From Halarcobacter mediterraneus (GTDB lineage Bacteria; Campylobacterota; Campylobacteria; Campylobacterales; Arcobacteraceae), in NCBI RefSeq assembly GCF_004116625.1, contig NZ_NXIE01000003.1:310001-374000 (forward strand): DNA of 64,000 nucleotides. The letters run 5' to 3'. The notes below the pieces were generated by a model. That model saw only the letters and a program-made list of their open reading frames with translations, was not told the origin of the DNA and made no database searches. The position numbers were made by a program, and so were the translations under genes. Shown in pieces: positions 20,515 through 50,657 of this stretch (position 1 is the first letter of the stretch; each line of letters starts with the position of its first letter).

Positions 20515-20781
20515 ATGAATATTTATGTAGGAAACCTGTCTTATAAAATGATTGACAGTGACTTAGAAAAGTTATTCGCAGAATTTGGCGAAGTAAAAAG
20601 TGCGAAAGTAATCGTAGATAGAGATACAGGAAGATCAAAAGGTTTTGGATTTGTTGAAATGCAAACATCAGAATCTGGTTCTGAAGCAATCGAAGCTTTA
20701 AATGGTAAAGATTGTGAAGGTAGAGCTTTAAGAGTAAATGAAGCAAAACCAAGAGAAGAAAGACCTAGAAGACAATTCTAG
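20515..20781 (+). CDS. RNA-binding protein, single RRM domain
   Basis: This 88-residue protein is almost entirely one RNA recognition motif. RNP2 is IYVGNL at residues 3-8 and RNP1 is KGFGFVEM near 43-50. A short Arg/Glu-rich tail (PREERPRRQF) follows. Small bacterial RRM proteins of this type are known in cyanobacteria and Campylobacterota, where they bind RNA and can be cold-induced. It is a single gene with its own promoter region and a hairpin at its stop codon. Confidence 0.9.
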   Translation: MNIYVGNLSYKMIDSDLEKLFAEFGEVKSAKVIVDRDTGRSKGFGFVEMQTSESGSEAIEALNGKDCEGRALRVNEAKPREERPRRQF

Positions 20782-20787
20782 TCTTCT
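20767..20787 (+). terminator. Hairpin over the rbp stop codon
   Basis: AGAAGAC (20767-20773) pairs with GTCTTCT (20781-20787) across the 7-nt loop AATTCTA, with the TAG stop at the loop edge. A pyrimidine-rich run follows rather than a pure T-run, then the perfect palindrome TCTCAATTGAGA. It is a moderate terminator candidate. Confidence 0.5.
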
Positions 20788-20819
20788 TCTCTCAATTGAG
20801 AAATAATCATAAAAACTAA

Positions 20820-20950
20820 CTACAGTTGATATAATGGAACTTTTACTCATAAGGAGAAGTCTCTTTGCTGGTTGTTGGTTATATTATGTTTAAGTGAGCG
20901 CAAGTTCCACTATATCTGCTAAAACTGTAGAACAATTCTACACCTTTTTT
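20820..20950 (+). ncRNA. Candidate structured RNA of unknown class
   Basis: CTACAGTT (20820-20827) pairs perfectly with AACTGTAG (20923-20930). Just inside, GATATAATGGAACTT (20828-20842) pairs with AAGTTCCACTATATC (20902-20916) with a single A-C mismatch, leaving a 6-nt one-sided bulge TGCTAA. Within the 59-nt interior, AAGGAG pairs with CTCTTT. A terminator-like stem GTAGAA / TTCTAC followed by ACC and six Ts (20927-20950) shares bases with the closing stem, so the two are mutually exclusive. No protein-coding frame is evident. I could not match it to 6S, SRP, tmRNA or any riboswitch I know. The plus strand is favoured by the T-run. Confidence 0.5.
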
Positions 20951-20992
20951 GTGTAGTTATCGTGTGATAAATAACACAATTTATAAAAAATA

Positions 20993-23900
20993 TTAATTTC
21001 CATAATTTTTTCTTCTTATTGTTACCAAAATATAAAAAATTGCAGGTATTATCACTAATGTTAATATTGCTGAAGAAATCATTCCTCCAATCATAGGTGC
21101 AGCAATTCTTTGCATAACTTCACTCCCTACTCCATCAATATACATAATAGGAATAAGTCCTCCTAAGATAGCAAATAGTGTCATAAGTTTTGGTCTAAGT
21201 CTTAAAACTGCACCTTTATAAACTGCATGGAAAATATGAGTATTATTAAGTTCCTCACACTTATCTGGTAGCTCTTTCATAGCTTCATGTAAATATACAA
21301 GCATTACAATAGAAGTTTCTGCTGCAACTCCAAGTAAAGCTAAAAAACCAACAACAACTGCAATTGACATATTAAAATTTAAAACTTCCAAATAAAATAT
21401 TCCACCCGTTAAGGCAAAGGGCAAAGTAAAAAATATAATAAAAGTATATGTGATATTTTTAAGTGCAAAATATATAAGAATAAATATAAGTACAAAAGTT
21501 AGTGGAATAATAAAGACAAATTTATTCATTGCTGATTCCAAATATTCACTCTGCCCTGCCCATTCATAATAGAAGCCTTCAGGAAGCTTCATATCAGCAA
21601 GAATCTCTTTTGCTTCATCCTTGTATTGTTTTGATGAGATATCCGCTTTAGGAGTAATATAAATGAAGTTAACGTTAAGTGCTTTCTCTGATTTTATTAC
21701 AGAAGGTCCTTCTTCATAGTTTAAATCTGCAAACATCTGTAAAGGTTGAAATCCAAGTTTTGTTTTTACTCGAAGATTAACTAAAGCATTTATATCTTCC
21801 CTTTGACTTGTTTCAAATCTTAAGCTAATAGGATATCTTTCTAATCCATCAAAAAGTGTTGTAACTTTTGAACCAGCAACGCCTAAAGAGATTGTTGAAA
21901 GAATATCATTTTTTGTAATACCATATCTAGCTAACATTAATTCATCAAGTTTTATATTTAAATAGTATCCAGAGTTTATTTTATCAGTTGATACTGATAA
22001 AGTTGAATCTAATTTTTTAAGTCTTTTCTCAAACTCTAAAGCAGTATCTTCTAACTTTTGATGATCATCTCCATAAAGCTTTATTCCTAAAGGAGTTCTA
22101 ATACCTGTAAGAAGCATATCGATTCTTCCACGGATTGGATATGTCCACGAATTAATAAGCCCTGCAACTTTTAGCTTTTGGTCCATCTCTTGCATAAGCT
22201 TTTTATATGTCATTCCTTCACGCCATTGATTTTCTGGCTTGAAAGTAACTATTGTTTCGATCATAGCTAGTGGTGCTGGGTCAGTTGCAGTATCTGCTCG
22301 CCCTGCTTTACCAAATACTGTATCAACCTCTGGAAAAGACTTTAATATTTGATTTGTTTTTTGAGTTAATTCCTTTGATAAATCAACTCCAATTCCATAA
22401 GGAGTTACAGGCATATACATAAAAGTTTGCTCATTCATCATTGGCATAAATTCCCAATTTAACTTTTTATATACAGGATAAGAAAGAGCCAAAGTAAAAA
22501 CAAAAAAAGCAACAATTAAATATCTAAATTTAAGTGATAATTTTAAAACAGGAGAATAAAGTTTCACAAAAAACCTATTTAAGATATTTTTATCTTCCTT
22601 TAGGATTTTTCCTTTTATAAAAAAAATCATTAAAATAGGAACAATCGTAATAGATAAAATTGCTCCTGCTACCATTGCAAATGTTTTAGTAAAGGCTAAA
22701 GGTGTAAACAATCTTCCCTCTTGTCCTGTTAAAACAAAGATTGGTAAAAAAGAGACTACTACAAGAACTAGTGCAAAGAAGATTGGTCGCCCTACTTGCT
22801 TTGAAGACTTGATTATAATATCAATTCGTTCTTTATTGGAAATGTTTTCTTTGCCTTGAAGATGTTTATGGGCATTTTCTACCATAACAATTGTTGCGTC
22901 AACCATTGCTCCAATTGCAATAGCAATACCACCTAGACTCATAATATTTGAACCTAAGTTAAAAAACTTCATTAATAAAAAAGTAATCATAACTGTAAGT
23001 GGCAAAGTAATGATAATAATAAGTGCTGACCTGAAGTGGAATAAAAATAGTGCCACAATAATCATAACTATAATTGACTCTTCAAGAAGAGTATTTTTAA
23101 GTGTATCAATTGCTTTATCAATAAGTGAACTTCTATCATAAACTTCAACAACTTCTACATCATTTGTTTTTAAAGTATCAAGTTTTTCTTTAACTCTTTT
23201 TATTACAGAGTAAGGATTTTCACCATATCTTACAACTACAATTCCACCAACAGTTTCACCCTGCCCATTTAAGTCAGCCATACCTCTTCTATTTGATGAA
23301 GTGATATTAACACTTGCAATATCTTTTACAAATAAAGGATTAGCATCAAAAGTTTTTATAGTAATATTTTCAATATCTTCAACAGTTTTTAAAAAGCCTT
23401 TTGCTTGAATCATATGTTCAAAACCATTTTCTAAAATGATTCTTCCACCTTTTTCATCGTTGTTAGATTCTATTGCTTTTTTCAAATTAGCAATTGAAAT
23501 ATCATATTGCACCATCTTATCTTGGTCAATAGTAATCTCATAGTTTTTAATAAATCCACCAATAGATGCAATCTCACTAACTCCATCAACACCCAAAAGT
23601 GCAAACTTATAATAGTAGTCTTGTAATGTTCTTAACTCATCAAGGGATTTAGTATCAGATTTTAAAGCATATTGATAAGCCCATCCTACACCAGTTGCAT
23701 CTGGACCAATTGCTACATCAACACCTTCGGGGAATGCTCCTTGAAGTTGTGAAAGCTGTTCTAAGATTCTATTTCTAGAATCATAAAGGTCTGTTCCATC
23801 TTTAAAGATTACATAAATAAGTGCATTTTGAAATGAACTCATTGCTCTTACAGTCTCAATATTTGGAAGGCTCATAAGGTTTGAAATAAGAGGATATGAA

Positions 23901-24094
23901 ACTTGCTCTTCTATAGTCTTAGGACTTTGCCCTGCCCACTTCACTTGTACAATTACTTGTGGAGGGGACAAATCAGGTAGTGCATCTAAGCTTGTATTTT
24001 TTATTGCCCAAATTGAGCCAATAGCTAATACAAGCATTGTAAAGATGACTAAAAATTTGTTCTTTATACTTTGAGAGATAATTGATTCAACCAT
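20993..24094 (-). CDS. Heavy-metal efflux RND permease (CusA/CzcA family)
   Basis: This inner-membrane proton-driven RND pump is of the heavy-metal family, with 1033 residues and twelve membrane segments. Typical features are the N-terminal NTSLDALPDLSPPQVIVQVKW region (split across the first loop), MVDATIVMVENAHKH in membrane segment 4, and the C-terminal DGVGSEVMQRIAAPMIGG signature. The porter domain has a Met-rich stretch (FMPMMNEQTFMYMPVTP), which favours Cu(I)/Ag(I). It ends the operon kinase-(YtkA-like)-TolC-adaptor-pump, transcribed on the minus strand. Confidence 0.9.
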   Translation of the reverse strand: MVESIISQSIKNKFLVIFTMLVLAIGSIWAIKNTSLDALPDLSPPQVIVQVKWAGQSPKTIEEQVSYPLISNLMSLPNIETVRAMSSFQNALIYVIFKDGTDLYDSRNRILEQLSQLQGAFPEGVDVAIGPDATGVGWAYQYALKSDTKSLDELRTLQDYYYKFALLGVDGVSEIASIGGFIKNYEITIDQDKMVQYDISIANLKKAIESNNDEKGGRIILENGFEHMIQAKGFLKTVEDIENITIKTFDANPLFVKDIASVNITSSNRRGMADLNGQGETVGGIVVVRYGENPYSVIKRVKEKLDTLKTNDVEVVEVYDRSSLIDKAIDTLKNTLLEESIIVMIIVALFLFHFRSALIIIITLPLTVMITFLLMKFFNLGSNIMSLGGIAIAIGAMVDATIVMVENAHKHLQGKENISNKERIDIIIKSSKQVGRPIFFALVLVVVSFLPIFVLTGQEGRLFTPLAFTKTFAMVAGAILSITIVPILMIFFIKGKILKEDKNILNRFFVKLYSPVLKLSLKFRYLIVAFFVFTLALSYPVYKKLNWEFMPMMNEQTFMYMPVTPYGIGVDLSKELTQKTNQILKSFPEVDTVFGKAGRADTATDPAPLAMIETIVTFKPENQWREGMTYKKLMQEMDQKLKVAGLINSWTYPIRGRIDMLLTGIRTPLGIKLYGDDHQKLEDTALEFEKRLKKLDSTLSVSTDKINSGYYLNIKLDELMLARYGITKNDILSTISLGVAGSKVTTLFDGLERYPISLRFETSQREDINALVNLRVKTKLGFQPLQMFADLNYEEGPSVIKSEKALNVNFIYITPKADISSKQYKDEAKEILADMKLPEGFYYEWAGQSEYLESAMNKFVFIIPLTFVLIFILIYFALKNITYTFIIFFTLPFALTGGIFYLEVLNFNMSIAVVVGFLALLGVAAETSIVMLVYLHEAMKELPDKCEELNNTHIFHAVYKGAVLRLRPKLMTLFAILGGLIPIMYIDGVGSEVMQRIAAPMIGGMISSAILTLVIIPAIFYILVTIRRKNYGN

Positions 24095-27987: not shown

Positions 27988-28647
27988 ATGAAAATATTAT
28001 TACTTGAAGACGATACTTTGTTACATGAGATTATAGAAGAGTTTTTAGAGGAACTAACATATGATGTTGTAACAACTTATGATGGACAAGAAGCCTATGA
28101 ATTAATTTTTGAGAATCATTTTGATTTACTTATTTTAGATGTAAATGTCCCTTCTCTAAATGGTTTTGATTTGTTAGAAAATTTAAAAGCTAATGCTATG
28201 GATATTCCAACTATTTTTATAACTTCACTGCATACTACAAAAGATATGGAAAAAGGGTTTAATGTAGGAGCAGATGATTATATTAAAAAACCTTTTCACT
28301 TAAGTGAATTAAAACTTAGAATTGAAAATATAAAAAGACTAAGAAAAATAGAATCAAAAGAAGTAGAAAAAATAAATGAATCGATATCCTATAATTTTTC
28401 TTCAAAATCACTCATAGTAAATAATAATAAATTTCAACTCTCAAAAACAGAGTCAAAAGTTTTTGAATACTTGTTAAAACACTCAAATAAAGCAGTTTCA
28501 ATTGAAGAGCTTACTTTAAACAACTGGTTATATGATGAGCTTCCAACTGATACAACAATTAGAACATATATAAAAAATTTACGTAAAGTATTAGGAAAGG
28601 ACTCTATTATAAATATAAAAGGAATAGGATATAAATTTGAATTGTAA
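27988..28647 (+). CDS. OmpR/PhoB-family response regulator
   Basis: The receiver domain (1-115) has acidic residues EDD at 7-9, phospho-Asp51 (LILDVNVPS) and the Lys of KKPFH near 99. It is followed by a winged-helix DNA-binding domain (about 130-219, with TIRTYIKNLRKVLG recognition region). At 219 residues it is a standard OmpR-type regulator. It is divergent from the kinase gene and is its obvious partner. It is expected to activate the RND metal exporter operon, probably from the repeat array upstream. Confidence 0.9.
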   Translation: MKILLLEDDTLLHEIIEEFLEELTYDVVTTYDGQEAYELIFENHFDLLILDVNVPSLNGFDLLENLKANAMDIPTIFITSLHTTKDMEKGFNVGADDYIKKPFHLSELKLRIENIKRLRKIESKEVEKINESISYNFSSKSLIVNNNKFQLSKTESKVFEYLLKHSNKAVSIEELTLNNWLYDELPTDTTIRTYIKNLRKVLGKDSIINIKGIGYKFEL

Positions 28648-50501: not shown

Positions 50502-50547
50502 AAAGAAGAGCATAAAGAATATAAAAGTATTTTTTATGCTCTTCTTT
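50502..50547 (+). repeat. Perfect 15-bp hairpin in the SRP RNA leader
   Basis: AAAGAAGAGCATAAA (50502-50516) pairs perfectly with TTTATGCTCTTCTTT (50533-50547). Within the 16-nt loop AATAT and GTATT can extend the stem. It lies right after the -10 box and ends at the SRP RNA. No T-run follows, so it is not a classical terminator. It could be an RNase III-type processing signal or a separate small RNA. Confidence 0.65.
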
Positions 50548-50657
50548 AGACCCTTACAATCATTTTTAGAGATAACGCCCCAGGATGGGAACATAGCAAG
50601 GCACCTCTATCTTTGGTGTGTTTGGATATCTGGAGAAGAGTGCTATTAGCACTTTTT
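50548..50657 (+). ncRNA. ffs: Signal recognition particle RNA (4.5S type) with terminator
   Basis: The apical SRP helix 8 motif is present: CCAGG-ATG-GGAA-CAT-AGCA-AGG at 50580-50601, with a GGAA tetraloop and the asymmetric AGG/AGCA loop that binds Ffh. Below it GCC pairs with GGC, then AGAGATA pairs with TATCTTT. The terminator AGTGCT-ATT-AGCACT-TTTTT (50639-50658) ends the transcript. Exact 5' and 3' ends are uncertain. Confidence 0.8.

Follow-up and report, generated by a model that had tools for sequence, protein, structure and literature searches.

The window analyzed here is a stretch of 64,000 nt from Halarcobacter mediterraneus. Within it, the feature at 20820-20950 is located between rbp (20515-20781, plus strand), which lies downstream of gltX and encodes an RRM protein, and the convergent cusA gene. 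The product of rbp passes the cut-off of the NCBIfam model Rbp_regulator. Beyond cusA, the minus strand carries a HlyD/CusB-type gene, an outer-membrane efflux gene, a YtkA-domain gene and a histidine kinase gene; the response regulator gene of this cus locus is divergent. A previous reading of the window from its sequence only (the sequence-only reading) had described a structured RNA candidate at this site with two stems, and both are present as described. The inner stem comprises 15 positions with a single mismatch on the plus strand (20834 A / 20910 C) and encloses an interior of 59 nt (20843-20901), and the plus-strand hairpin overlaps the closing stem. The positions of these and other features are summarized in Table 1.

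Table 1 Features of the rbp-cusA region and its surroundings
Feature	Position	Strand	Remarks
Predicted small RNA	20811-20928	-	5′ end at about 20928, 3′ end at about 20811 or at 20787-20767; hairpin in 14/16 genomes of the genus, minus strand favored
Closing stem, 5′ side	20923-20930	-	8 perfect pairs; outer two pairs precede the predicted start
Closing stem, 3′ side	20820-20827	-	followed by TTAGTTTTT
Conserved 15-bp stem, 5′ arm (GAUAUAGUGGAACUU)	20902-20916	-	sequence and alignment
Conserved 15-bp stem, 3′ arm (AAGUUCCAUUAUAUC)	20828-20842	-	holds a G-U pair, which is an A-C mismatch on the plus strand
C/U-rich, anti-Shine-Dalgarno-like loop motif (UUCUCCUUA)	20850-20858	-	TTCTCC in 14/14
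A/C-rich loop motif (AACCAACAACCAGC)	20867-20880	-	12/14 (not G005, G008); unpaired probability 0.63-0.98
-10 box TAGAAT of predicted promoter	20935-20940	-	TATAAT or TAAAAT in relatives
Conserved operator-like element (CACGATAACTACACA) upstream of -10 box	20950-20964	-	alignment and matrices
Hairpin followed by T6 (20945-20950)	20926-20942	+	may end the rbp mRNA; overlaps the predicted -10 box
cusA, heavy-metal RND efflux pump	20993-24094	-	TIGR00914 over cut-off
OmpR-family response regulator of the cus locus, divergent	27988-28647	+	candidate activator

We searched 60 whole genomes, including that of the window, with the DNA sequence and obtained four close matches at 81-82% identity together with weaker ones. 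When the end of gltX was used as an anchor, 100 of the 104 genomes of the family were matched, and the loci of 50, including all 16 genomes of the genus, were read. The inverted repeat was present in 14 of the 16 genus genomes, always between rbp and cusA, and was absent from the other 34 loci read outside the genus. In the genome G003, the RNA is about 540 nt away from the cusA match, and the distance is smaller in the other genomes. The RNA is missing from two genomes of the genus (G011 and G013) in which cusA follows rbp, and also from the gltX-rbp loci of several genomes in other genera. In G013, neither the RNA (by covariance model) nor the promoter pattern described below was found. The sequence-only reading had proposed the RRM protein as a partner of the RNA; this idea rested on adjacency, and these genomes with rbp and no RNA speak against it.

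The inner stem is supported by the alignment of the 14 homologues: 98.1% of 210 cells are paired, while slid controls gave at most 45.7%. Compared with shuffled alignments, which according to the warning of the tool overstate significance for related sequences, the number of cells with double changes was high (13 versus a mean of 4.2; none of 500 shuffles reached it) and so was the covariation score (0.245 versus 0.134; again none of 500), while two weaker measures, the pairs with a double change (5 of 15 versus 3.1; 24 of 500 shuffles) and further pair types (11 versus 9.2; 70 of 500), were closer to the shuffles. One stem pair shows the series A-U, G-U and G-C across the homologues. Thus, the hairpin is real and is conserved in a group of Arcobacter-like bacteria. 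The compensatory changes bear out the proposal of a structured RNA, and covarying homologues downstream of rbp, suggested as a check by the sequence-only reading, do exist.

We built a covariance model (R1) from the 14 homologues. In the family genomes, R1 recovered the 14 members, and the other 88 genomes gave one weak match (G080, E 0.21); this search was run with stricter filters, by which weak relatives may be missed. Among 199 genomes drawn from the order, R1 matched the window's own genome only at E ≤ 0.01. We did not count the weak matches, namely a second site in G012 (E 0.06), the G080 match and four opposite-strand matches at the locus, the last of which are expected because the feature is an inverted repeat. 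One further locus that was read (L096) held nothing of interest. With Rfam 15, no family reached the gathering threshold at the window locus or in the 14 homologous loci. A permissive search of 20700-21100 gave eight weak matches far below the gathering scores (best E 0.1). The earlier statement that the RNA matches no known class therefore holds for Rfam at these loci. The Rfam 6S RNA model also gave no match at the window locus or the 14 homologous loci; in C. jejuni and H. pylori, 6S RNA is reported upstream of purD, unlike this locus (PMC3847290). Literature on Arcobacter small or noncoding RNAs and on copper-linked small RNAs contained no description of this RNA among the matches listed. 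Over the window, the Rfam search gave two matches, both away from the locus; an ordinary known RNA, the bacterial small SRP RNA (RF00169), is located at 50543-50639 on the plus strand (46 bits; gathering score 40).

The sequence-only reading had placed the RNA on the plus strand. Our results favor the minus strand. Folding of 20820-20950 gave a z-score of -4.34 on the minus strand, where none of 200 shuffles folded as well, and -2.19 on the plus strand, where 3 of 200 did. The mean z-scores over the 14 homologues were -4.28 (minus) and -2.30 (plus). Furthermore, the non-Watson-Crick cells of the stem in the 14 genomes, read on the minus strand, comprise 10 G-U, 2 A-C and 2 others. Because the 10 cells are G-U pairs on the minus strand and mismatches on the plus strand, they point to the minus strand; we regard this bias as moderate evidence, some of the changes being common by descent. 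A conserved promoter block on the minus strand, described next, points in the same direction.

A block of 42 nt (20966-20925), 26 nt from the stop codon of cusA, is aligned without gaps in all 14 homologues and reads CAC-N-N-T-W-ACT-M-CAC-R on the minus strand. The -10 box follows 10 nt past the second CAC, and after a further 6 nt there is ACA (14/14). The promoter type is CACGATTACTACAC-N10-TATAAT with fixed spacing, located just outside the hairpin and reading into it. In the window and in G004, G006, G012 and G015, its four closest relatives, the -10 box reads TAAAAT or TAGAAT; in the other homologues it is TATAAT. A sigma-70 scan, which also demands a -35 hexamer, found no promoter at the predicted -10 box. 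The promoter motif reported for C. jejuni and H. pylori is a -10 gnTAnaAT with T-rich positions upstream (PMC3847290), and the block fits it only in part. A start at 20928, as predicted, would place the conserved stem inside the minus-strand transcript, which would be at least about 118 nt long. The -10 box and the sequence TTAGTTTTT that follows the closing stem served to place the predicted ends. In a terminator scan, there was none at 20811 and one on the minus strand at 20787-20767. The latter is a terminator-like hairpin inside the end of rbp, and close relatives have a similar sequence there. The RNA may therefore end after the closing stem (about 20811) or at this site.

To see where else this promoter occurs, a matrix of the 42-nt block was run over 542 kb of loci (overlapping loci included). 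It found the members and two further places, which scored 27.3 and 23.5; the next score was 12.0, and three shuffled controls gave 10.0-11.6. One of the two places is after a copA-like gene in G011, and the other is in the rbp slot of G024, a genome of another genus. G011, which lacks the RNA after rbp, has a similar promoter after a copA-like gene instead. The meaningful neighborhood looks like the copper-efflux side. The G024 site (L048:2200-2296) appears to be a diverged copy of the RNA gene, in which the promoter is kept, the hairpin is shorter (ATATGAAAG/CTTTCATAT), TTCTCCTTT lies 3′ of the hairpin and the adjoining cus genes look decayed. The promoter matrix and our reading of the sequence are the grounds for this copy; when 36 loci of relatives were searched with the covariance model, the single match had E 1.1 and the G024 copy was missed.

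We then used the pattern CAYRNTYACTMCAY-N10-TATAATNC with at most one mismatch. It occurs at 35 places in 23 of the 104 family genomes, and the reversed control occurs at none. Eleven of the 35 belong to the small RNA's own promoter or to the two places in G024 and G011; differences in the -10 box or the operator keep the pattern from matching in the window and its four relatives. All of the other 24 places were read, with genes named mostly by sight. Six of them, in a genus designated g6 (G118, G119, G020, G121, G122 and G124), precede genes for a CGAGKCGG-repeat protein and a MNIO enzyme directly after cusA. Two places head a YtkA-efflux operon, two follow a copA-like gene and one lies between a response regulator gene and genes for small metal-type proteins. 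Thus, 11 of the 24 are copper-linked, and the small RNA promoter shares its operator-like element and spacing with promoters of copper genes. The remaining 13 are not, or not clearly, copper-linked: two each belong to TRAP transporter, cytochrome c and Met/His-rich secreted protein genes, one to an unknown secreted protein and one to a decayed gene, and five fall within genes, abut genes or precede an unrelated ORF. In L175 and L179 (G118 and G121), the pattern stands before genes that by sight encode TRAP-transporter-type solute-binding proteins, so the regulon of this promoter may extend beyond copper. The operator without the -10 box, searched genus-wide with at most one mismatch, gave 91 places versus 69 for the reversed pattern, and we therefore used only the combined pattern.

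In genus g6 (L174, L176, L177, L178, L170 and L171), a MNIO-RiPP operon fills the slot that is held by the small RNA gene in the window's genus. In 15 of the 16 genomes of the latter, a MNIO gene is present elsewhere. We read 18 MNIO loci (14 of the genus and 4 others) from 22 genomes with a match, and scanned 1.5 kb upstream of each MNIO gene with a matrix made from the small RNA promoters only. In all but one of the 18 loci, the best match stood 25-41 nt ahead of an ORF start, the exception being G020 (106 nt); the ORF behind it was yceI-like in 14 and a precursor in 3. The scores were 11.4-26.2, at least 12 in 17 of 18, while random 1.5-kb stretches of the window had a mean of 5.7 (sd 2.7) and reached 12 in 3.6%. 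It should be mentioned that most MNIO promoters of the genus match only in part: ACTTAACA replaces ACTACACA, and there is no TATAAT. The window's own genome has such a yceI-precursor-MNIO operon (L218; G000 C3:265868-269647), with a partial match before yceI; it is divergent from another OmpR-type response regulator gene, which resembles that of the cus locus. The MNIO enzyme of this genome passed Pfam PF05114 and did not pass the NCBIfam cut-offs for HvfB and BufB, so we call the operon MNIO-RiPP type only. For bufferins, chelation of excess copper has been reported (PMC12452194). Taken as a whole, the pattern proposes a regulon of cus, MNIO-RiPP and copA-linked genes.

We considered whether the cus regulator binds both the small RNA promoter and the cus regulator-kinase intergenic region. 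With a matrix made from the intergenic sites, the small RNA region ranked only 110th in the window. A matrix from eight sites at other genes placed the small RNA operator first and the cus-region sites 12th, 13th and 20th, but these eight sites had been found with the small RNA-derived pattern, so that the test is partly circular. With small RNA sites only, the cus-region sites ranked 46, 140, 165, 260 and 295, and with both site sets 20, 22, 29, 110 and 240. Operator-only matrices thus give a mixed picture for the cus locus, and the cus regulator is no more than a candidate for binding both promoters.

The conservation, the covariation, the strand bias, the conserved promoter block and the recurrence of the pattern at copper-linked genes are computed results. 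The feature is real and conserved and is probably the gene for a minus-strand small RNA with a copper-type promoter; its activation may rely on a promoter of the type that serves the nearby copper-defense genes. Its loop suggests how such an RNA might act. UUCUCC is inside the loop in all 14 homologues, and its mean unpaired probability is 0.73-1.00 in nine genomes and only 0.47-0.56 in the window and the four genomes closest to it. The RNA is predicted to have a single-stranded C/U-rich loop of the kind found in CJnc190 and RepG. In G009, the homologue (L036:981-1109) has an insertion of 23 nt on its 5′ side, in which the A/C-rich motif occurs a second time (ACAACAACCAACAC).

We propose, with moderate confidence, that the feature is a minus-strand small RNA gene with its own promoter, that its transcription is raised by copper and that the RNA blocks translation through its C/U-rich loop without Hfq. 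In this model, transcription would begin near 20928, immediately outside the conserved stem, from a promoter with the conserved upstream element. The transcript would fold into a long stem and a large loop that exposes the C/U-rich, anti-Shine-Dalgarno-like stretch. Copper or a related metal would raise transcription via an OmpR-family regulator, and the RNA would pair with ribosome-binding sites of target mRNAs, by analogy with known small RNAs, and block their translation. Hfq was not found in the 31 genomes searched, in a search that was positive in 5 of 14 control genomes. H. pylori is likewise reported to be without Hfq (PMC8322730). If the proposal is right, a small RNA gene family is tied to copper defense in Arcobacter-like bacteria, a lineage in which no Hfq was found.

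Candidate targets were sought in limited screens. The pattern AAGGAGAAGTCTCTT with at most two mismatches occurs at 115 places in five genomes, five of which are the locus itself. The counts exceed those of the reversed control in G004 (21 versus 15), G006 (26 versus 15) and G012 (40 versus 13), and are close to it in G000 (11 versus 9) and G015 (17 versus 11). We read the four places with a single mismatch (AAGGAGAAATCTCTT): in three genomes, they are antisense inside one gene, thiD-like by eye, and in G000 the place is inside another ORF. When the loop segment was paired with the starts of the 57 window ORFs of at least 110 amino acids, purB came first (-18.2 versus -13.7 for the next). Over the 14 genomes, pairing with purB was better than 266-290 of 300 shuffles in the window and the four closest relatives, but better than only 83-250 of 300 in the other nine. 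We therefore rejected purB as a conserved target. Thus, these screens (four of the 115 pattern places, 57 window ORF starts and purB over 14 genomes) yielded no conserved target.

The minus-strand RNA might have a plus-strand antisense partner transcribed convergently from a TATAAT in the left arm, as in the CJnc190/CJnc180 pair of Campylobacter (PMC8687705). By eye, T-rich sequence precedes this TATAAT on the plus strand in several species. However, the left arm is complementary to the right arm and would hold a TATAAT in any case, and the upstream plus-strand sequence is not conserved. We consider a convergent pair unlikely.

A plus-strand RNA, either the 3′ UTR of rbp or an independent transcript, might instead switch between the closed hairpin and the terminator hairpin and be bound by the RRM protein. 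The adjoining RRM gene, an AAGGAG element on the plus strand and the plus-strand TATAAT in the left arm fit this idea, and the mutually exclusive folds put forward by the sequence-only reading do both exist in the window. However, the overlap that the switch needs is not conserved: only the window and its four closest relatives retain the closing stem (7-8 pairs), its overlap with the terminator hairpin is clear only in the window, and in G004 and G012 the two hairpins have at most about 2 nt in common. We reject the switch because of this and the strand evidence given above. In addition, a transcript from the left-arm TATAAT would omit the left arm, in G001 and G005 a hairpin-T terminator, identified by eye, directly follows rbp and sets it apart from the RNA, and G011 and G013 have rbp without the RNA. 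A plus-strand RNA is therefore improbable in our judgment.

The inverted repeat might also act at the DNA level or as a bidirectional terminator, without RNA function. Its position between convergent genes, the plus-strand hairpin with its T-run and the two terminator-like sites nearby on the minus strand are what such an element would show. We give this idea little credence, since a loop that spans tens of nucleotides (59 in the window) and carries conserved motifs is unlike that of a terminator and the conserved 42-nt promoter block reads into the hairpin. Finally, a plus-strand short peptide or type I toxin of the AapA/IsoA kind is hardly credible: homologues do have a Shine-Dalgarno-like purine run (AAGGAG) with a downstream NTG codon in the loop, and some have short frames, but by eye these vary in sequence and length, stops break them in some species (G014, G010, G002 and G007 read TTG and then immediately TAG), and no conserved small hydrophobic ORF was found, so that we rejected both a toxin and a leader peptide.

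Our preferred reading, a minus-strand small RNA, can be compared with known systems. C. jejuni, the host of CJnc190, is in the same phylum. CJnc190 has a long stem-loop precursor, a C/U-rich loop and a possible antisense partner, like the RNA here, but it also has a proven target (ptmG) and is processed by RNase III (PMC8687705). Furthermore, in the family and order genomes that were searched, R1 gave no match at E ≤ 0.01 beyond the genus, and the promoter pattern of the RNA here recurs at copper-linked genes. RepG of H. pylori is a free-standing small RNA, as is proposed for the RNA here, and its C/U-rich loop acts at G-rich mRNA (PMC8322730, PMC8687705). Its target is a phase-variable G-repeat; in contrast, the RNA here has one long conserved stem and a large loop. 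MNIO-RiPP operons of the bufferin/oxazolin type (PMC12452194) share the promoter pattern and, in genus g6, the slot after cusA, but they encode peptides and enzymes, whereas the small RNA locus has no conserved ORF. Stav et al. (2019) analyzed intergenic regions of Arcobacter sp. L and left most novel ones unnamed (PMC6429828). Their motifs are, like ours, genus-restricted structured intergenic candidates in Arcobacter, and the locus may be among those unnamed motifs.

A second RNA candidate is located downstream of a copA-like gene. Among 14 copA loci read, a promoter-like motif related to that of the first RNA follows this gene in four, in G011, G003, G008 and G009 (loci L184, L185, L186 and L188). 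The motif begins 6-32 nt past the matched gene end and scores 27.4, 10.9, 11.1 and 12.4, respectively; as background, 6 of about 128,000 window positions score at least 10. The candidate is 75-84 nt long, with ends chosen by us, and ends in a strong hairpin and a T-rich tail. A C/U-rich stretch, unpaired in the predicted fold, stands just before the hairpin. The candidate has no Rfam match and by eye is unlike the first RNA. It is possible, though doubtful, that copper stress is answered in these bacteria by an RNA brake on translation, with two dissimilar small RNAs under copper-type promoters, after cusA and after copA, each with an anti-Shine-Dalgarno-like stretch, which in one genome reads CACCUCCUUU and resembles the 3′ end of 16S rRNA. 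Copper efflux would then be coupled to repression of selected mRNAs without Hfq. If so, the second, dissimilar RNA suggests that the coupling of copper efflux with RNA control arose more than once. In G008, the stretch of the second candidate, CACCTCCTTT, resembles the 3′ end of 16S rRNA.
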